46,276 bases of DNA from Deltaproteobacteria bacterium (GCA_028713995.1 JAQTNF010000023.1:1-46276), one strand, 5' to 3'; positions 17,978 through 28,721 are shown, counted from the stretch's first letter. Notes: a model not told the origin generated them from the sequence alone. Numbers and translations: made by a program.

Positions 17978-20900
17978 GTGAACGAACGATATATATCCGT
18001 TCGACCTTTGGGGCGCGGCGGCCAGTCCGACGTGCTCCTGGTGCGCGACCTCAAACGGCAGGGCCGCCTCCTGGCGCTCAAGCGCGTCCCTTCGACCGAA
18101 GCGGATCTGTCCGACCTGACCCTGGAGTTCACGCGCCTCGCCCGGCTGCGGCATCCGAACCTGGCGCGCGCCTACGATTTCGGTTTCGACGAAGAAGGCG
18201 CGTACTTCACGTCGGAGTTCGTGGACGGCCCGAACGTGATCTCCTGGGCGAAAACCGCGGGGGAGGCCGAAATCTGTCGGGCCATGGCCGCGGTGCTGCG
18301 CGCCCTGTCCATGATCCATGACCGGGGGCTGGTGCACGGAGACGTGAGCGCGGGCAACATCCTCGTAGCCAAAGGGCAGGACGGGTCGGTGCCCAAGCTC
18401 CTCGACCTGGGAGCCGCCCGGCGTCCCGGGCAGCCCGGCGGCGGCACGGCCGGCTTCGCGGCTCCGGAGGCCATCTCGGGCCGCGGCCTTCTGCCAGCTT
18501 CGGATCTCTACTCGTTCGGCGCGGTCCTGGCCCACGCCCTCTTCGGCCGTTCGGCCTTCGGTCACGGCGACGCCTCGGCCGTGACCATGCGCCAGCTCAA
18601 CCGGCAGATCGATCTGCCTGACGCGTCGGGCTCGCCCGTGGCCGGACTGTGCCGCGACCTGCTCGATCCGGATCCGTCGCGCCGCTGCCGCTCGGCCGCC
18701 GAGACCCTGGAGCGCCTGGCCGCTGCCACGGGCCTCGACCTGGCCGTGGGCCTCGGGGATCTGCGCGGCGGCGATCTGCCACCTCCGCTGGTCGTGGGTC
18801 GCGACGCGGAGATCGCGGCGCTGGCCGGCCTGGTCGACAGGCTCGACGATCCGGACGCGGAGCGCGTGGTGTGGATCGACGGCCCGCCGGGCAGCGGCCG
18901 AAGCGTGCTGCTCGAGGAGCTGTGGCGCGCGGGTCAGGTCGCGGGGCTGCGCGTGATCGGTCGGACCGGAGAGCCGCCGCGCCTCGGCGAGCTCGTTTCA
19001 GGCATGGTCCGCGAGTCGCCGGGCTCGTCGCTCGCTCCCGCGGCGCGCGCCGTCCTGTCTCCGTGGACGGGCGAGGCAACGGCGGAACCGGGCCGCGATG
19101 CTCCGTCTCCGTCGGCCGTGGGTTTCGCCGCAACCGAGGCCCTGGCCGCGACCTGCGCGACGAGGCCGATGATCGTCGTGATCGACGATTTCGAATCGGC
19201 CGATCCCCTGGCACAAGAGGTGGGCAGGAGCCTCGCGCGCGCCCTGGAGCGCGGGCGTTTCGGCCGCCCGCGGGCCCTCCTGGCTTTTTCCGGACGCCCC
19301 GGCGAGGGAGGCGCCGGACGCGATCTGCCCGGCGCGACGATCCGCATCGGTCCGCTCCCGCCCGCGGACACGACCAGGCTGGTGGGCTCCATGCTGTCGT
19401 GCGTCTCGTTTCCCGCGGACCTGGCCGAGGCCGTGCACCTGGGGTCCGGCGGTCTGCCCAAGGTGGCGCAGGAGCTGGTCCGCGGAGCCGCGGGCCCGGG
19501 CCACGGGGAAACAATCGCCGCGCGCGCCCGCGCGCTCGTGGCGGCGCAGGGTGAGCCGGCCCGCACGACGCTCGCGCTCCTCGCTCTCGCGCAGGACGGC
19601 GTTCCGGCGGCTCTGCTCGCGGAGGCGGCCGGGCTGACATCCGCGGAGGCCGAAGACATTGTCCGCTGCGGGCTCCTCACCGAGCTTGGCGAGCCGGGCG
19701 CGGAGAGGCTCAAGGTCGCGGCCGTGGCCGGCAAAGTGGCGCTCGACCTCGTTCCGTCGGAGACACTTGCTGCCGCGGCCGAACGCCTCGAGGTTCTGCT
19801 CGAGTCGCGCGGACATCTGGCCGCCGCCGCAGCTCTCCTCGCGCGCACCGGGAAGGTGGAGGCCGCGGGCCGCGTTTACGTCGAGCTGGCGCGCGCCTCG
19901 GCCGCTCGCGGAGACCTGGCCGGCGCGGCCGAGTGGTTCACGCGGGCCCTCGAGCCCCCGTCGTCGGAGGACGGCGGACGGGGACCGGTGGCTGCGCAGG
20001 CCGCTCGGGTATTCCGCGCTCTGGGCCGTTACGACCAGGCCCTTGCCGCGCTCGCCGCGGCCGGCGGGGACGAACGGGAGAGCGCGCTGCTGCGCGCCGA
20101 GATCCTGCTGGAGAGCGGTCGCCACCGGGAGGCGCACGACCTGGCGCGCGGGTCGTGGAAGGAGCGACCGTCGGACACGTCGTTCGCCGCGGTGGCCGCC
20201 GCGGCCGCGCTGCAGCTCGGCCAGCACGAGACGGCGCTTTCGTACGCGCGCGAGGCGCTCGAGGTCGCGGGGGCCGCGGGTGAGGCCTCGCCGAGGCTGG
20301 CCCACGTGGGCGGCCTGGCGTGCGTGTACCTGGGCCGGCTCGAAGAGTCGGCCTCGCTGTTCGCGCGTGCGGCGCGTGGGTTCGAGAAGGCGCACGATCG
20401 CCTGGGGCAGCTCAAGGTGGCGGCCGGGATGGGCATGCTGGCCACGCGGCAGGGCGCTCTCAACGAGGCCCGCTCCGCCTATGATCGGGCCGTGGCGCTC
20501 AGCCGCGAGTTGGGCGACCGCTCGCGCGAGGGCCTGCACCTCATGAACCGCGGCGCGGTGGCCCACTCGGCTGCGGACTTCGCCGCCGCGCTCGACGACT
20601 ATTCGGCCGCGCTCGATATTGCGACCGTGCTCGGCAACGCGTTCGGCCGCGCGCAGGCCGAGATCAGCCTGGCCGACCTGCTCTCCGACCTGGGCGACCA
20701 GCCCGCATCGTTGCGCCTCGCGACCATGGCCATGGAGCGCTGTCGCGCGCTCGGCCAGGAGCGCCTCGAGGTGCGCGGGCTGCTCACGGCCGGCGTGGCG
20801 GCCTTGCGGGCCGGCGATCCGGTGCGCGCGGAAGGGCGCCTCAAGGAAGCGCGCCGCAGGTTCGCGGCGGCCGGGGACGACATGGGCCGCGTGGGAGCCG

Positions 20901-22903
20901 AGCTGCGCCTCGCGGAGCTCGCCTTCGTCCGCGGGGATCTTGCGGGCGCGGCGCAGCGCGCGGTCGTCATCCGTCGCGAGGCCGAGGGCAAGGAGCTGAC
21001 GCGCGTGGCGGCGTCGGCCGCGATCCTCGGGGCGCGCGCCCTATCCGAAGGCGCGGACGACCACGCTGCGGCGCTCGCATTGCTCGACGACGCGGCGTCC
21101 CTGCCCGGTCGCGAGGGCTCGCCCGACGACGCGTGGCGGTTCGAGCTCGCCCGTTCGCAGGTTCTCGGCCGCGCCGGGCGCAGGACCGAGTCCGAGGCCG
21201 CGCGCGCCGAGGCCGAGAGGGGCTTTGCGGCCGTGCTCGCCAAGGTGCCTGGGCGCTTTCTCGAGGCGTTCTGCCGGCAAGAGGAGGCGGCAGACCTTCC
21301 TTGCGTGGCCTCTCGCGGCGAGACGTCGCCCGACGCCGACCGCCGCGCCCGCGACCTCGAGCTGCTCGTGGAGATCAACCGCGAGCTGACGCGCGAGCTC
21401 GATCCCAAGCGCCTGCTCTCCCTCATCATGGAGCGCGCGGTGGAGCTCACGGGCGCGGAGCGCGGCATGGTGGTGCTCCCGCGCGAGGGTTCTCTCGTGC
21501 CCGCCGTGTGCCACCGCCTCTCCGACGAAATCGAGCTCGGCTTCAGCCGCTCCGTGGCCGAGCAGGTGGTCTCCGAGGGCCGGGCGCTTTTGGCCGTGGA
21601 CGCGCTCGATGACGACCGCTTTCGCTCCTTTAAGAGCGTGAGCGCCCACGGGCTGCGGTCGATCCTGTGCGTGCCGCTCTCCATCCGGCGCAAGGTGGTG
21701 GGCGCCGTGTACCTGGACAGCCGCCTGCGCTCGGGCGTGTTCACCGATGCGGACCGCAGGCTCCTCGAGGCCTTCGGCTCGCAGGCGGCCATCGCGCTCG
21801 AGACCGCGCGCCTCGTGTCCGAGAACTCGCGCCGCTGCGAGGATCTCGAGCGGGCCAACGCCGAGATCCGCGCCCTCACGACCAAGCTCGAGCGGCGCCT
21901 CGAGACCAACGAGGCGGCCCTGCGCCGCGTGGGCGCCCTGCTCACGCGCGCCCAGGCCGAGCAGGCGCGCGACCTGCTCAGCCGCGGCATCGTGGGCACG
22001 TCGCCGGCCATGGCGAGGGTCCTTTCTCTCGTGGACCGCATCGCGCTCGCCGACGTGCCGGTGCACGTGTTCGGCGAGTCGGGCACGGGCAAGGACCTCG
22101 TGGCGCGAGCCATCCACGCGCGCTCCGAGCGGTTCGAAAAGCCGTTCGTGGCGGTCAACTGCGGCGCCCTGCCGCAACACCTGCTCGCGAGCGAGCTGTT
22201 CGGTCACTTGAGGGGCTCGTTCACGGGCGCGTTCCAGGACCGCCCGGGCCTGTTCCGGCTCGCCGACGGGGGGACGTTGTTCCTCGACGAGGTTGCGGAC
22301 ATGGGCCCCGAGATGCAGGCGGCCCTGCTCCGCGTGCTCCAGGACGGCACGTTCCGGCCCGTGGGCGGCGGCGACGAGGAGTCGGCCGACGTGCGCGTCG
22401 TGTCGGCGGCGAACCGCCAGCTCGCCCTGGAGGTCAAGGCCGGCCGCTTCCGCGAGGATCTCTTCTACCGGCTGCACGTGGTGGGCATCGAGGTGCCGCC
22501 CTTGCGCGACCGCCGCGAGGACATCCCGCTCCTCGCCGAGTTCTTCGCCGCGCGCCACGCCCAGGGCGACCCGCCGTCGTTCTCCAGGGAGGCCCTTGAG
22601 GTTCTCTCGGCCGCGCCGTGGCCCGGAAACGTGCGCGAGCTCGAGAACGAGGTGCAACGGGCCATCGCGATGCGCGTCCCCGGCAGCTCCATCATGCCCG
22701 CGGACCTCTCGCCGCGATTGCGCGAATGCGCGGGCGACGGCGCGGGCCCCGAGCCCGGGGCGCTCAAGGAGCGCGTGGCGGCTTTCGAGCTCTCGGCCAT
22801 CCGCCGGGTGCTCTCCGAGTGCGGCGGCAACACCACCAGGGCCGCCAAGCAGCTCGGCATGAGCCGCGCCGGGCTCTACAAGAAGCTCGGCCGCCGCGAG
22901 TGA
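17978..22903 (+). CDS. Ser/Thr kinase-AAA-TPR-GAF-sigma54 activator fusion
   Basis: A 1641-residue multidomain regulator. Residues 1-270 are a Hanks-type kinase: glycine loop LGRGGQSDV, Lys35, a catalytic loop reading HGDVSAGN (His120, Asp122, Asn127) and a DLG in place of DFG (Asp143). An STAND-like ATPase follows with WIDGPPGSGRS near residue 302, then TPR-like helices to about 1050. A GAF domain covers about 1140-1290. The AAA+ sigma-54 interaction module has GESGTGKD near 1367, LFGHLRGSFTGAFQ and TLFLDEVADMGPEMQ. A Fis-type HTH (GGNTTRAAKQLGMSRAGLY) ends the protein. Such fusions are typical of myxobacteria-like genomes and would activate sigma-54 promoters in response to signals bound by GAF/TPR. 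The GAFTGA loop reads GSFTGA. GTG start after CCGGAGGA. Confidence 0.92.
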   Translation: MNERYISVRPLGRGGQSDVLLVRDLKRQGRLLALKRVPSTEADLSDLTLEFTRLARLRHPNLARAYDFGFDEEGAYFTSEFVDGPNVISWAKTAGEAEICRAMAAVLRALSMIHDRGLVHGDVSAGNILVAKGQDGSVPKLLDLGAARRPGQPGGGTAGFAAPEAISGRGLLPASDLYSFGAVLAHALFGRSAFGHGDASAVTMRQLNRQIDLPDASGSPVAGLCRDLLDPDPSRRCRSAAETLERLAAATGLDLAVGLGDLRGGDLPPPLVVGRDAEIAALAGLVDRLDDPDAERVVWIDGPPGSGRSVLLEELWRAGQVAGLRVIGRTGEPPRLGELVSGMVRESPGSSLAPAARAVLSPWTGEATAEPGRDAPSPSAVGFAATEALAATCATRPMIVVIDDFESADPLAQEVGRSLARALERGRFGRPRALLAFSGRPGEGGAGRDLPGATIRIGPLPPADTTRLVGSMLSCVSFPADLAEAVHLGSGGLPKVAQELVRGAAGPGHGETIAARARALVAAQGEPARTTLALLALAQDGVPAALLAEAAGLTSAEAEDIVRCGLLTELGEPGAERLKVAAVAGKVALDLVPSETLAAAAERLEVLLESRGHLAAAAALLARTGKVEAAGRVYVELARASAARGDLAGAAEWFTRALEPPSSEDGGRGPVAAQAARVFRALGRYDQALAALAAAGGDERESALLRAEILLESGRHREAHDLARGSWKERPSDTSFAAVAAAAALQLGQHETALSYAREALEVAGAAGEASPRLAHVGGLACVYLGRLEESASLFARAARGFEKAHDRLGQLKVAAGMGMLATRQGALNEARSAYDRAVALSRELGDRSREGLHLMNRGAVAHSAADFAAALDDYSAALDIATVLGNAFGRAQAEISLADLLSDLGDQPASLRLATMAMERCRALGQERLEVRGLLTAGVAALRAGDPVRAEGRLKEARRRFAAAGDDMGRVGAELRLAELAFVRGDLAGAAQRAVVIRREAEGKELTRVAASAAILGARALSEGADDHAAALALLDDAASLPGREGSPDDAWRFELARSQVLGRAGRRTESEAARAEAERGFAAVLAKVPGRFLEAFCRQEEAADLPCVASRGETSPDADRRARDLELLVEINRELTRELDPKRLLSLIMERAVELTGAERGMVVLPREGSLVPAVCHRLSDEIELGFSRSVAEQVVSEGRALLAVDALDDDRFRSFKSVSAHGLRSILCVPLSIRRKVVGAVYLDSRLRSGVFTDADRRLLEAFGSQAAIALETARLVSENSRRCEDLERANAEIRALTTKLERRLETNEAALRRVGALLTRAQAEQARDLLSRGIVGTSPAMARVLSLVDRIALADVPVHVFGESGTGKDLVARAIHARSERFEKPFVAVNCGALPQHLLASELFGHLRGSFTGAFQDRPGLFRLADGGTLFLDEVADMGPEMQAALLRVLQDGTFRPVGGGDEESADVRVVSAANRQLALEVKAGRFREDLFYRLHVVGIEVPPLRDRREDIPLLAEFFAARHAQGDPPSFSREALEVLSAAPWPGNVRELENEVQRAIAMRVPGSSIMPADLSPRLRECAGDGAGPEPGALKERVAAFELSAIRRVLSECGGNTTRAAKQLGMSRAGLYKKLGRRE

Positions 22904-24403: not shown

Positions 24404-24409
24404 TATAAT
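24404..24409 (+). promoter_or_regulatory. Consensus -10 box (TATAAT) for RiPP-like operon
   Basis: A perfect TATAAT in an AT-rich island inside high-GC DNA, about 55 bp before the GTG start of the PqqD-like gene. The -35 position at the usual 17-bp spacing reads TCCTTC, a poor match, which suggests dependence on an activator, possibly at the inverted repeat just upstream. Confidence 0.5.
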
Positions 24410-24464: not shown

Positions 24465-24770
24465 GTGGCCTCTGTCCGCACACAAGGGGTGCGATACGCG
24501 AAGGAGACCTCCGTCGCCTGGCGTCGCATCGCCGACGAGGTCGTGATCGTGCCGATCGGCCGGCCGGCAAACCGCCTCGACAGCATCTACGTCCTCAATG
24601 AGGTGGCGGCGCGCGCGTGGGAGCTCCTCGAGCGCGGGACCTCGATATCGGGTCTGGCGAGCGCCATCTGCGAGGAGTTCGAGGTCGAGCCCGACGAGGC
24701 CGAGGCCGACCTCGCCGATTTGCTCGCGGAGCTGGAGCAGGTCGGCGCGGTCACGAAGGCCGCGCCATGA
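24465..24770 (+). CDS. PqqD-like RiPP recognition element protein
   Basis: A 101-residue protein with the PqqD fold: a beta-hairpin region (VAWRRIADEVVIVPI), the strongly conserved YVLNEVAARAWELLERG helix, SISGLASAICEEFEVEP and a final helix DLADLLAELEQVGAV. PqqD proteins bind the leader peptide of a ribosomal precursor and present it to a radical SAM enzyme, as PqqD does for PqqA and PqqE. The GTG at 24465 follows GAGGTGG. The stop overlaps the radical SAM start by 4 bp, so it is the first gene of the four-gene operon. Confidence 0.87.
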   Translation: MASVRTQGVRYAKETSVAWRRIADEVVIVPIGRPANRLDSIYVLNEVAARAWELLERGTSISGLASAICEEFEVEPDEAEADLADLLAELEQVGAVTKAAP

Positions 24771-25864
24771 GCTGCATCGCGCAGGACGCCGACTACGGCG
24801 CGGTGAGCGAGCGCCTGCGCGCCAAGGCCACGGCCGGCCGCATCCCGGTGAGCGGCTCGTTCGAGCTGACCGAGCGCTGCAACCTCTCGTGCGCGCACTG
24901 CTACATCAACCGGCCCGTGGACGACGCAACGGCCCTCGCCGAGGAGATGACGCGCGACGAGGTCTTCGCGATCTTCGACAAGCTCGCCCATGCGGGCTGC
25001 CTGTGGCTCGCGTTCACGGGCGGCGAGCCCATGGTCCGGCCCGACTTCGCCGATATCTACTCCAGGGCCCGCGAGCTCGGCTTCCTCGTCTCGGTCTTCA
25101 CGAACGCCACGCTCGTGACGCCCCGGATCGTCGCGCTCTTCACGCGCATGCCGCCCTTCACCGTGGAGGTCACGGTGTACGGCATCACGCGAGCGACTTG
25201 CGAGCGCGTGACCGGCGCGCCGGGGTCTTTCGACCGCTGCATGGACGGCGTCCGGCGGCTCGCGGACGCGGGCGTGCGGCTCGAGCTCAAGACCACGGTG
25301 TCCGTCCTCAACCAGGGGGATCTCGGTGCGATCCGACAGCTCGCCGCGGATCTGGGCGCGCTCTTCAGGTTCGAGCTGCTCCTCAACAACCGGCTCGACG
25401 GGACGCGGCAGGGCGGGCGGGTCGCGCTTTCCCCGCGCGAGATCGCCGAGATCGACCTCGCGGACGGGCGGGTGCGCGAGATCCGGCTCGCCGCCGCAAA
25501 TCGGCCGAGGGACACGGGACCGGGCAGCAACCTGTATACGTGCAGCGCCGGGATCCGCGCGTTCCACGTGGACGCACGGGGCAGGCTCATGCCGTGCATC
25601 ATGGTGCGCAGGCCCGCGTTCGACCTGCTCGCGGGCTCGTTCGCGGACGGCTTCGACGGTCCGATCCGCGATGCGGTGCGCGCCGTGCGAACGGCCCAAG
25701 CCCCGTGCGCCGGGTGCGAAGTGGCGTCCGTGTGCGACGCGTGTCCGGGGTGGGGGCTCATCGAGAAGGGCGATCCCGAGGCGGCCGTGGATTTCCTGTG
25801 TGAGGTGGCGCGCGAGCGCGGGCGCATGCTCGGCCTTGCCGGGAGCGACCGGAGGGTCCCGTGA
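24767..25864 (+). CDS. Radical SAM/SPASM peptide maturase
   Basis: A 365-residue radical SAM enzyme. The 4Fe-4S/SAM motif CNLSCAHC (Cys38, 42, 45) is followed by the SAM-binding GGEPM block. The C-terminal SPASM-type region carries further cysteines (YTCSAG, MPCIM, CAGCEVASVCDACPGW) that would bind auxiliary Fe-S clusters. This architecture is that of PqqE/AlbA-type enzymes that install C-C or C-S bonds in ribosomal peptides. The start ATG lies in the PqqD-like stop (ATGA, 24767-24770), which rejects a longer in-frame start. The stop overlaps the GTG of the precursor gene by 4 bp. The reaction on this precursor is unknown; a thioether is plausible because the peptide has cysteines. Confidence 0.92.
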   Translation: MSCIAQDADYGAVSERLRAKATAGRIPVSGSFELTERCNLSCAHCYINRPVDDATALAEEMTRDEVFAIFDKLAHAGCLWLAFTGGEPMVRPDFADIYSRARELGFLVSVFTNATLVTPRIVALFTRMPPFTVEVTVYGITRATCERVTGAPGSFDRCMDGVRRLADAGVRLELKTTVSVLNQGDLGAIRQLAADLGALFRFELLLNNRLDGTRQGGRVALSPREIAEIDLADGRVREIRLAAANRPRDTGPGSNLYTCSAGIRAFHVDARGRLMPCIMVRRPAFDLLAGSFADGFDGPIRDAVRAVRTAQAPCAGCEVASVCDACPGWGLIEKGDPEAAVDFLCEVARERGRMLGLAGSDRRVP

Positions 25865-26028
25865 CGGCGCAGCGGCGGGAAAGGGCGAAGCCCGCGGCCC
25901 GGCGTCCCTATGCGAAGCCGCGCGTGGAGCGCGTGCCCATCAAACCGGACGAGGCCCTGCTCGCGTGCGAGTGCAAGAACGTCCCTCACATTTGCGAGGG
26001 CGGCCCCGGTCGCAGGCCCCGATCATGA
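25861..26028 (+). CDS. Putative RiPP precursor peptide (55 aa, Cys-containing)
   Basis: A small GTG-start gene between the radical SAM and kinase genes, overlapping both by 4 bp (GTGA at 25861-25864, ATGA at 26025-26028). It encodes 55 residues. A basic leader (MTAQRRERAKPAARR) is followed by PYAKPRVERVPIKPDEALLA, with Tyr17 and Pro20 in a Y-x-x-P arrangement of the kind used by RRE proteins to bind leaders. The C-terminal core is CECKNVPHICEGGPGRRPRS, with Cys36, Cys38 and Cys45. The tail has several Gly, Pro and Arg residues and one terminal Ser. Size, position and composition fit a radical-SAM-modified precursor. There is no GG cleavage site directly before the first Cys, so the leader cleavage point is unknown. 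Gene reality rests on context. Confidence 0.75.
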   Translation: MTAQRRERAKPAARRPYAKPRVERVPIKPDEALLACECKNVPHICEGGPGRRPRS

Positions 26029-27011
26029 CGGACACGGCGCCGGGCGACGCGATGCGCTCCGTCGCGTCCATGCGCCTTGAGATCGCCGGTTTGGCGATCG
26101 ACGTGGAGGTCGATCGGCCGACCGCCGACATCGGCTTCGATCCCGCGCACCGGCGTTTTCTCGCACCGGCGTCCGGCGTCGCGGCCCCGGATCTCGTCCT
26201 GCGCTGCACCTTCGGCGCGCTGCCGATTGATCTGATCGGCAACGGCGAGCTCGTCTTCGACTCGGGAGGGCTGTGGACGCTGCGCCGCGTGGATGGCCGG
26301 CTGGTGTTCGTGCTGCGCGCTCCCGAGCGCAGGAACGCGCCGTACCGGGTCGCGATCCTCGATGAGGATCTCTCGCAAGGGCAGATCGCGAGCACGACGG
26401 GCGGGCGCATGGACGCGCCGTCCGCTCTCCTGCCCGATCCGCTCGAGTACCCGCTCGGCGAGGCCATCCTGGTGTGCCTGCTCGCGCGCGGCTTCGGGCT
26501 CATGATCCACGGCTGCGGCGTGGACGACGGCGGGCGCGGTTACCTGTTCGCCGGTCAGTCCGGCCACGGCAAGACGACCATGGCCCGGCTGTGGCAGGGC
26601 GAGGCGCGCGTGCTCAACGACGACCGCATCGTGCTGCGCGCAAGGGACGAACGGCTCGTCATGTACGGCACCCCGTGGCATGGGGATCACCCGGAGGTGG
26701 ACTCCGGCGGCGTCCCTTTGGAGCGGATCTTCCTGCTCTCCCACGCACCTTCGAACGGGATGGTCGCCGTGCGTCCGTCCGACGCGGCGTCGCGCCTGCT
26801 CGCGCGCAGCTTCCCGCCCCTGTGGTCCGCCCAAGGCATGTCGCGCACCCTCGAATTCCTGGCGGAGGTCACGAGCCTTGCGCCGTGCGCTTCGCTCGGC
26901 TTCGCGCCCACGAAGGACGTGGTGGGGTTCGTCAGGGATTCGGGCCGGGCGCGGCCGGCTTGTGGGCCGCGATGGAGCGGAAGCGCGCGCGGTTTCCCGA
27001 CAGCTCGATGA
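26025..27011 (+). CDS. HPr-kinase-like P-loop protein of the RiPP-like operon
   Basis: A 328-residue protein with an N-terminal alpha/beta region of unknown role. The C-terminal HPrK/PCK-type half has the P-loop GQSGHGKTT at residues 177-185, then VLNDDRIVL (the acidic block after the P-loop) and YGTPWHGD. HPrK-like proteins occur in RiPP loci; in some lasso-peptide clusters such a kinase phosphorylates the peptide on Ser. The start overlaps the precursor stop by 4 bp. The last 80 bp overlap the convergent lipoprotein gene, and the final 25 or so residues look non-conserved. A role in phosphorylating the precursor (for example its C-terminal Ser55) is inference. Confidence 0.82.
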   Translation: MTDTAPGDAMRSVASMRLEIAGLAIDVEVDRPTADIGFDPAHRRFLAPASGVAAPDLVLRCTFGALPIDLIGNGELVFDSGGLWTLRRVDGRLVFVLRAPERRNAPYRVAILDEDLSQGQIASTTGGRMDAPSALLPDPLEYPLGEAILVCLLARGFGLMIHGCGVDDGGRGYLFAGQSGHGKTTMARLWQGEARVLNDDRIVLRARDERLVMYGTPWHGDHPEVDSGGVPLERIFLLSHAPSNGMVAVRPSDAASRLLARSFPPLWSAQGMSRTLEFLAEVTSLAPCASLGFAPTKDVVGFVRDSGRARPACGPRWSGSARGFPTAR

Positions 27012-27942
27012 CGTGCGCCATGCCGACGGACCTGCCGCCGCCCACGAGCGACACGGGCACCGCGTCAGCGGCCCCGGCCTGCAAGTAAAGGGAGTCCTGC
27101 CATACGCCGGACGCGACGGGCGTGGCGCCGTCCGCGAGCGTGGCGTGCCCGCCAGACTCGAAGACGTGGCCGTAGAGGCCGAAGCGGATGCCTGCCTTCC
27201 GGAGCGCCTCCGCCAGGGCCGGATCGCCGATGTTGGCGTTGCCACGGCCCCGGTCCACGGCCGAATCTCCCGCGCCGCGCGGCGGGGACGCGGCCAGGAT
27301 CACGTTCGTGCGGCCCTTCTCCGCGAGCGACACCATGTCCGAGAGGTCGCCCGCGCCGTAGGAGCAGCCGCGCTCGCCGGCCTCCAGGTAGAAGGCGCGG
27401 TAGTAGCCCGGCAGGGAGAGGACCGTTGCGCTGCCGAGCCGCACCCGGCGCACGCGCGTCATGTCCAGGATCTGCGGGTGGCGCTTGCGCGCGTCCTCGA
27501 TGGCCGAGGAGAGCACGTCGTAGCTTTCCTGCGCGCCGGGCGAGACGAGGATGGGGACCGGCGCCGCGGCCAGGGCCGCAAGGATGCCGGAAACGTCCTT
27601 CACCGCAAGGCCCACGCCGCCCGGAACCAGGATGGCCTGCACGCCCGCGTCCTTGAACCGGCCGAGGAACCACGCCACGTTGGCCAGGTTCTCGGGGCTC
27701 GCCTCGGTGATGCCCGCGATGAGGCCGAGCATGACCACGCCGCGCTCGAGGCCCCTCACGTCGACGTCCGCGCCGTCGCGCTCCACCACGAGCGGCGGAA
27801 GCTTGATGGTCTCTCGTCCGGTCTCGAGGTGGGATCTCGCGCAGCTCAGATAGGGCTCATCGCCCTGCTCGGCCGACGACGGCGCAGCGGGCCTCCCGCA
27901 GGACGCGAGAACCGCGAGCGCAACTGACATGACGAGGCGCAT
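26932..27942 (-). CDS. Lipoprotein with degenerate metallophosphoesterase-like fold
   Basis: A 336-residue lipoprotein (signal plus lipobox LASC, Cys at about residue 15) with a short Ser/Asp linker. The order of blocks resembles calcineurin-like phosphoesterases: a GVVMLGLIAG strand, VQAILVPGGVGL, PVPILVSPGAQESY, VILAASPPRG and FGLYGHVFESGG. At the positions where metal ligands are expected (D-x-H, GD, GNHD/E, GH-x-H) the residues are mostly replaced (GLIAG, PGGVG, SPGAQE, YGHVFE). Either it has lost metal catalysis or the resemblance is to a different fold; the assignment is tentative. Its 3' end overlaps the HPrK-like gene by 80 bp in convergent orientation. Confidence 0.5.
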   Translation of the reverse strand: MRLVMSVALAVLASCGRPAAPSSAEQGDEPYLSCARSHLETGRETIKLPPLVVERDGADVDVRGLERGVVMLGLIAGITEASPENLANVAWFLGRFKDAGVQAILVPGGVGLAVKDVSGILAALAAAPVPILVSPGAQESYDVLSSAIEDARKRHPQILDMTRVRRVRLGSATVLSLPGYYRAFYLEAGERGCSYGAGDLSDMVSLAEKGRTNVILAASPPRGAGDSAVDRGRGNANIGDPALAEALRKAGIRFGLYGHVFESGGHATLADGATPVASGVWQDSLYLQAGAADAVPVSLVGGGRSVGMAHVIELSGNRARFRSIAAHKPAAPGPNP

Positions 27943-27998
27943 GGACGCAGTGTACGTGCGGCGGCGCGCGCTGTAAACGGCGCGTGCGAGGAGAGGCG

Positions 27999-28721
27999 TC
28001 ACGCGCCGCGCGCCACTTCCACGTCGAAAACGGCGTGCTTGTCCTCGCGGCCCGCGGGCGTGAACCTGAGGACGGTGAGGCCGAGCTGCACCACGCGACC
28101 GTCGGGCTTGCGCAAGGACACGTGCTCGTCGTCGATCTTGACCACGGTGCAGCGGCCGAACTGGCGATGGTTCACCACGTCGCCGCGTTCGGGGCGCGCG
28201 CCTTCGTCGACCTCGAGGGAGGCCAGCCGCTCGGCGCGTCTTGACTCCGCGAGGGCCGCGGCCCAGCGTTCGTCGATGGCGGGAGGCTGCGGGACGGGCA
28301 ATGGCAGGTCGCGCGGCGGGCGAGGAGCCTGGACCTCGGCGCGGGCAGCGCAGGCCGGCTCGACCGCGGCGAGCTCGAGCGGGGTGAGGCTGAGCTCCAC
28401 GAACTCGACCTCGGCCCGGGCGAGCCCGCCGCCGAGGACCTCCACGCCGTTGTCGGTAAGGCGCGCCAGTGTGCACACGTAGTCCGCGAGCCGTGCGTCG
28501 CCGGCGCGGCGGATCCGGGCCTTGAGGTCGAGGAGCTCGAGCGGGCCCTTGATGCGCACGGGGGTTCGTCCGTCGCCGAACGTGAGCTCGACCCAGCGCA
28601 GCCGGCCGAACCCGATCGCGTCGCCGAAGGCCATGCCGAGCGCGTCCGCGGCCCGCTCCACCGCGTCCGGGAGCATGGCGCCGGCCTCGAGTCGCATGGC
28701 GCGTGGTGTCGCGTCGTTCAT
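27999..28721 (-). CDS. PPC (DUF296)-like domain protein with C-terminal small beta domain
   Basis: A 240-residue cytosolic protein. The first 130 residues contain helices and strands in the order of plants-and-prokaryotes-conserved (PPC/DUF296) domains, with LPDAVERAADALGMAFGDAI near the start and GVEVLGGGLARAEVEFVEL near its end, the region where PPC proteins have VLGGHL. A Pro-rich linker follows, then a basic beta-barrel-like segment (RGDVVNHRQFGRCTVVKIDD) resembling KOW/CarD-like small barrels. A DNA- or RNA-binding role is possible but not demonstrated by any motif. It lies 57 bp upstream of the lipoprotein gene on the same strand. Confidence 0.5.
   Translation of the reverse strand: MNDATPRAMRLEAGAMLPDAVERAADALGMAFGDAIGFGRLRWVELTFGDGRTPVRIKGPLELLDLKARIRRAGDARLADYVCTLARLTDNGVEVLGGGLARAEVEFVELSLTPLELAAVEPACAARAEVQAPRPPRDLPLPVPQPPAIDERWAAALAESRRAERLASLEVDEGARPERGDVVNHRQFGRCTVVKIDDEHVSLRKPDGRVVQLGLTVLRFTPAGREDKHAVFDVEVARGA

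Follow-up and report, generated by a model that had tools for sequence, protein, structure and literature searches.

What do the four overlapping genes at positions 24,465 to 27,011 of a 46,276-nucleotide DNA stretch from a Deltaproteobacteria bacterium (GCA_028713995.1, JAQTNF010000023.1:1-46276; this whole stretch is termed the window) make? All four lie on the plus strand. The first encodes a PqqD-like, stand-alone RiPP recognition element (RRE; RiPP, ribosomally synthesised and post-translationally modified peptide) of 101 residues (24465..24770, GTG start, Pfam PqqD 1.7e-16). It is followed by the genes for a radical S-adenosylmethionine (SAM)/SPASM maturase (24767..25864, 365 residues), a 55-residue precursor peptide (25861..26028; leader PYAKPRVERVPIKPDEALL, core ACECKNVPHICEGGPGRRPRS with serine at its end) and an HprK-like kinase (26025..27011, 328 residues). 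Three 4-bp overlaps join the open reading frames (ORFs): ATGA at 24767-24770, GTGA at 25861-25864 and ATGA at 26025-26028. ORF calls and the sequence place genes and overlaps exactly where an earlier reading of this DNA, the original prediction, had put them. That prediction proposed a radical-SAM-modified, possibly phosphorylated RiPP, a proposal now supported by a conserved cassette and a near-invariant C-terminal serine in its precursors. The cassette almost certainly makes a RiPP, and the product is probably radical-SAM-modified, presumably with cysteine thioethers, and C-terminally phosphorylated. If so, radical SAM maturation and HprK-type C-terminal phosphorylation, so far found in separate RiPP families, would be joined in one compact and widespread cassette.

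Conservation of the cassette and its precursor gene

A genome search for the same gene order had been set beforehand as a test, and both the small gene and the order proved strongly conserved. Searching with the radical SAM protein gave some match in 95 of 96 related genomes; the closely matching group (E < 1e-44) has the entire cassette. An HprK profile run against 318 genomes of the window's class returned about 17 full-length members at E < 1e-70 and then a gap, beneath which lie many distant HprK-like proteins matched over the kinase core alone. The order PqqD, radical SAM, precursor, HprK is observed in every full-length class member with enough contig. A genome-contig search with the single window radical SAM sequence gave no relatives; an alignment (A6) succeeded as query, locating the same cassette at about 28 named-record loci. 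These belong to at least 11 bacterial groups, as named in the database records: Deltaproteobacteria/Myxococcales, Aerophobetes, Aminicenantes, Omnitrophota, Nitrospinae, Nitrospirae, Acidobacteria, Chloroflexota, Planctomycetota, WOR-3 and Kiritimatiellia/Verrucomicrobia. The cassette is mostly known from uncultured bacteria.

Radical SAM and HprK distances correlate (r = 0.72, 51 loci), as expected for genes travelling together, with a contribution from shared host ancestry; between the radical SAM enzyme and the signal peptidase discussed below, r = 0.58. The radical SAM and HprK genes are fused as a single ORF in Acidobacteria locus L154 (811-2973, 721 residues) and Aminicenantes locus L163 (947-2965, about 670 residues). 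We note that both fused ORFs adjoin two more radical SAM genes, PqqD and the signal peptidase gene, and that two Nitrospira loci (L155, L159) have three radical SAM genes round one Cys-rich, Ser-ended precursor and an HprK-like gene. Distant clusters have other gene orders, for example HprK-PqqD-radical SAM with the precursor at either end. A second, distant cassette with this order is present in the window genome itself (G000), on contig C2 at about 100399-103767 (locus L055 6028-9768; L002, L036); its precursor candidate ends in GVRVPKST, with a terminal threonine.

The precursor gene sits between the radical SAM and HprK genes in relatives too. Two close pairs of relatives show purifying selection on it: synonymous divergence (Ks) is 0.59 and non-synonymous divergence (Ka) 0.015 for L039/L040 (Ka/Ks 0.025), and Ks is 0.50 and Ka 0.10 for L037/L038 (Ka/Ks 0.2). 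Because its place is conserved and selection acts on it, we regard the precursor as a real gene and not a chance ORF. No NCBIfam model covers it. The leader consensus is K-x-Y-x-K-P-x(4)-V-x-L-x-P-E-E-A-V-L-G. Among the 43 dereplicated precursors the core starts with CK in 39 and holds exactly three cysteines in 34; it is otherwise variable, ends in G/A-S, and is devoid of aromatic residues near its end in 16. The window core, CECKNVPHICEGGPGRRPRS, departs from this pattern, and in it the terminal serine is the sole Ser/Thr after the YxxP leader.

The C-terminal serine and the HprK-like kinase

In the strict dereplicated set the last residue of the precursor is serine in 40 of 43 (about 93%), threonine in two and glutamine in one (nominal binomial P for the serines, 1e-39). 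Serine accounts for 9.6% of the remaining core residues, and no other core serine column is conserved. Three artefactual explanations were rejected. The four other cassette proteins speak against a general excess of C-terminal serine in these genomes: serine ends 12/145 radical SAM proteins (8%), 8/112 HprK (7%), 7/97 PqqD (7%) and 7/69 signal peptidases (10%) of the same loci. Bias from a precursor model that contains the final serine was addressed with a leader-only model holding no core residue at all, which found 59 distinct precursors near HprK genes, ending in serine (52), threonine (2) or another residue (5). Finally, the ATGA overlap does not force the last codon, as terminal serine is encoded by TCA, TCC, TCG, AGT and AGC, including at loci without gene overlap. 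Since both serine codon sets, TCN and AGY, are represented, it is the residue itself that is conserved. The pattern extends to the distant clusters whose genes are arranged differently.

In paeninodin-type lasso clusters, the HprK-like kinase phosphorylates the linear precursor at its C-terminal serine, the rest of the sequence mattering little (PMC8498205). The near-invariant serine is the residue that such kinases modify, and the idea of phosphorylation gains independent support. For a proposal resting on computation alone the case is unusually strong. The HprK-like kinase very probably acts on the C-terminal serine, and conservation strongly suggests that it would phosphorylate this residue, perhaps several times. 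The proposed site in the window is Ser55, encoded by TCA at 26023..26025 (plus strand), a residue kept in relatives by varying codons.

The kinase itself bears the expected features. H162, the P-loop GQSGHGKT (G177-T184), D199, R201 and a GTPW motif are invariant in the aligned family, and the family profile aligns the His and the DDR with L. casei HprK/P. Throughout its length the AlphaFold model (pLDDT 88) adopts the HPrK/PEPCK fold, with a Z score of about 13 to PEPCK and, in a search of the PDB, matches to the HprK/P structures 1knx and 1kkl. The protein could instead not be an active kinase on the peptide, and serve the radical SAM enzyme as a scaffold or as a chaperone that binds peptide or depends on ATP. 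Its similarity to HprK proper is low (HPr kinase/phosphorylase TIGR00679, 16.6 bits against a cut-off of 240), and the two radical SAM-HprK fusions would fit a scaffold as well. We consider this highly improbable: the His, the P-loop Lys, D199 and R201 that align with HprK/P are invariant, and homologous kinases from RiPP clusters are active.

A link between kinase motif and last residue is also seen. Among well-matching kinases, the two precursors that end without a hydroxyl residue (Gln in L139, Pro in L149) pair with the two altered D199/R201 motifs (EDQ and DEC). With all loci counted, an altered DxR and a non-Ser/Thr end are associated at a Fisher P of about 0.001, a post hoc value from few cases in which the L149 precursor assignment is weak. 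It is further weakened by the many distant kinases that lack the Arg yet stand beside Ser-ended precursors. The Chloroflexota cassette (L139:4878-5768), with EDQ for the kinase DDR and a Gln-ended precursor, is a possible natural loss of the kinase step.

Were the terminal serine the target, a last residue of Ser or Thr would be a simple substrate predictor for a large group of uncharacterised HprK-like kinases. On balance we lean slightly towards a widespread RiPP class, in at least 11 groups, with radical SAM cross-links and a C-terminal (poly)phosphoserine that is sometimes modified by a nucleotidyltransferase. The wider rule would be that the terminal Ser/Thr of the precursor is the target of HprK-like kinases in radical SAM clusters.

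The proposed pathway and the case against it

The PqqD-like RRE would bind the YxxP leader of the precursor and present it, by analogy with the RREs of lasso peptides and of linear polyphosphorylated peptides (LPP), for which YxxP is the recognised leader element (PMC10368454, PMC13381572). Consistent with this, the RRE family profile, compared with solved structures, matches the lasso RRE TbiB1 best (5v1u, 9.7e-14), ahead of PqqD proper.

The radical SAM gene is present at every strict-set locus. The window enzyme (Pfam Radical_SAM 2.7e-19) has the CxxxCxxC motif at C38/C42/C45, and its SPASM cysteines C259, C277, C314, C317, C323 and C326 are invariant in 18 aligned relatives. In its AF2 model (pLDDT 90.8) the nearest solved structures are SkfB, SuiB and PqqE. 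Several relatives (L039-L042, L044, L052) carry a Cys-rich tail after the SPASM domain, for example SCGSGGCGSCG, which is not found in the window enzyme. The enzyme would modify the Cys core, most likely by forming thioether (sactionine or ranthionine) cross-links, a choice based on cysteine being what the cores conserve and on the lack, in many of them, of aromatics near the end. That the enzyme acts on the core cysteines is reasonably likely; that this occurs together with kinase action on the C-terminal serine is somewhat likely. The thioether assignment is the weakest step of the proposed pathway. Another reaction (epimerisation, or a C–C or ether cross-link), or conversion to a small redox cofactor as by PqqE and MftC, is possible but less likely. 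The enzyme's structural neighbours include PqqE and SuiB, and curated sequence models put it about as near to AhbD, NirJ and PqqE as to sactipeptide enzymes. Against such chemistry stand the cysteines as the conserved core residues, the frequent lack of aromatics, and the thioether-forming maturase SkfB as best match in both the sequence and the structure search.

In relatives, an archaeal-type signal-peptidase-like enzyme would cut off the leader. Of 18 relatives in the class, 13 have a small serine peptidase gene 3′ of HprK; all 13 products match TIGR02228 (archaeal signal peptidase I), and their Ser, His and Asp are invariant. The LPP leader peptidase LppS is likewise an archaeal-type signal peptidase (PMC13381572). 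The original prediction noted no dedicated protease, which holds for the window locus and fails for most of its relatives. A PF14907 nucleotidyltransferase may sometimes decorate the phosphate: genes for such enzymes follow in L128, L130 and two more sampled neighbours, and they accompany HprK-like kinases in paeninodin and LPP clusters. Capsule-type genes occur in the flanks of relatives' cassettes.

Several observations weigh against this pathway, some of them specific to the window. The signal peptidase gene does not adjoin the window cassette; a single copy turned up in the genome, at C2:103438 near the second HprK-PqqD-radical SAM cassette, from where its product could act in trans. The window core is atypical, being short, with the pattern CECK...C and a penultimate Arg instead of Gly/Ala. 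Homology of the window HprK stops at 26939, and its final 24 residues (tail at 26940..27011, plus strand) have no counterpart in the alignment with relatives, which have the signal peptidase gene there; the tail overlaps a convergent gene (stop at about 26932). It looks as if a deletion had joined HprK to this neighbour. Given the atypical core and the missing peptidase gene, the window copy could be what is left of a decaying cassette, functional in relatives, its peptidase gene deleted and its HprK read into the neighbouring gene. We find this doubtful, as the four ORFs are intact and tightly overlapping, the catalytic residues are present, and the same genome has the peptidase at its second cassette.

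Other reservations concern the evidence for C-terminal phosphorylation. The window HprK-like protein matches Pfam Hpr_kinase_C below the cut-off (E 0.0078), its family being far from HprK proper. As a negative control, 20 PqqD loci without HprK held almost no YxxP precursors (one, lasso-like, at L217, ends in Gly), too small a sample. All P values are nominal because the loci are not phylogenetically independent. Both BsfK (PMC10368454) and LppK (PMC13381572) phosphorylate an internal residue, Ser3 of the core, and not the last one. Together with the further Ser/Thr held by many cores, this raises the alternative that the kinase targets an internal core Ser/Thr or an HPr-like protein, the terminal serine having some other use, such as being recognised by the radical SAM enzyme, by an exporter or by a protease acting at the C-terminus. 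It appears unlikely: the single Ser/Thr after the window's YxxP leader is at the last position, there is no second conserved core serine column, and DxR loss accompanies non-Ser/Thr ends in two strict-set cases. Phosphorylation of the C-terminal serine remains the reading that we prefer.

The surroundings of the cassette add little. A TATAAT hexamer lies upstream of the operon (24404..24409, plus strand) as predicted originally; the promoter scan of the window recognised no sigma-70-like promoter with a −35 element near it, and the single promoter claimed there, being no more than a −10-like hexamer, is not supported. No terminator was predicted. The neighbours in the window are a sigma-54 regulator with a kinase domain, a response regulator, a divergent EamA transporter, and phosphonate-binding and LolA-like proteins; none is a RiPP enzyme. 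EamA had been noted as a divergent gene beside the pathway; it does not recur beside relatives' cassettes, and we reject it as a conserved peptide exporter. The 1641-residue regulator (17978-22903) combines a Ser/Thr kinase domain, an AAA domain, TPRs, GAF, a sigma-54 activator and a Fis helix-turn-helix. The convergent gene (26932-28026, minus strand), which shares about 80 bp at its 3′ end with HprK, encodes a lipoprotein-like product with no Pfam match.

Relation to known systems

The same protein classes occur in SynChlorMet (Scm; NCBIfam TIGR04248-TIGR04251), with a PqqD-like ScmD, an HprK-like ScmC and the radical SAM enzymes ScmE and ScmF. These models show that such classes had been seen together before. 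Scm has two radical SAM enzymes, whereas the cassette described here has one. Membership was rejected, all scores falling far below the cut-offs (ScmC 18 bits against 125, ScmD 17/100, ScmE 71/400, ScmF 79/400). No paper on the Scm cassette was found in the literature searched. For the combination of radical SAM, HPr kinase and RiPP it gave nothing beyond a mining paper of 2014, where HPr kinase is mentioned for lasso clusters. Nor did we find a description of the present cassette in that literature, which leaves most subscription journals outside.

With sactipeptide and ranthipeptide systems (SkfB, StsB, PapB) the cassette has in common a radical SAM/SPASM maturase and a Cys-containing core. 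To our knowledge these systems have no kinase, and no lasso-type discrete RRE with an archaeal-type signal peptidase. The window maturase scores far below the cut-offs of the named families (StsB 87 bits against 625, SkfB 66/300, PapB 62/340), and assignment to them was rejected.

The closest parallels are with phosphorylated peptides of two other kinds. Like the paeninodin-type lasso systems (PadeK, ThcoK, SyanK), the cassette has a discrete RRE, a YxxP-type leader and an HprK-like kinase, here predicted to act on a C-terminal serine. The likeness to PadeK/ThcoK, intact kinase motifs and C-terminal serine in 40/43, is drawn from published descriptions. A radical SAM/SPASM enzyme takes the place of cyclase and B2 protease, and the protease in relatives is of the signal peptidase type. 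Lasso membership was rejected, as neither an Asn-synthetase-like lasso cyclase nor a B2 cysteine protease was seen among the neighbour genes checked beside the window cassette. LPP (Nat Commun 2026, PMC13381572) shares the discrete lasso-like RRE, the YxxP leader, the HprK-like kinase and the absence of a lasso cyclase. An archaeal-type signal peptidase I is also common to both, as are a PF14907-type nucleotidyltransferase near some clusters and the proximity of some to capsule genes. The window locus itself shares RRE, kinase and YxxP leader; the signal peptidase is found in the 13/18 relatives and not at the window. The differences are considerable. No radical SAM enzyme is mentioned for LPP as described, whereas it is universal here. 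The LPP phosphosite is the internal Ser3; here the conserved serine is the last residue, and the window core has no serine at position 3. The LPP leader consensus, YxxPxVLxHQxIxFETxxS, differs from that of the cassette (PMC13381572), and LPP is reported as restricted to Bacillota while the cassette occurs in other groups. On the best reading, the cassette would resemble the phosphorylated lasso and LPP pathways in its working, a radical SAM enzyme standing in for the lasso cyclase. Judged on the features tested, it belongs to neither. If the reading is right, its RRE, leader motif, kinase and leader peptidase tie it to both, which suggests that the ring-forming enzyme has been swapped between RiPP families.

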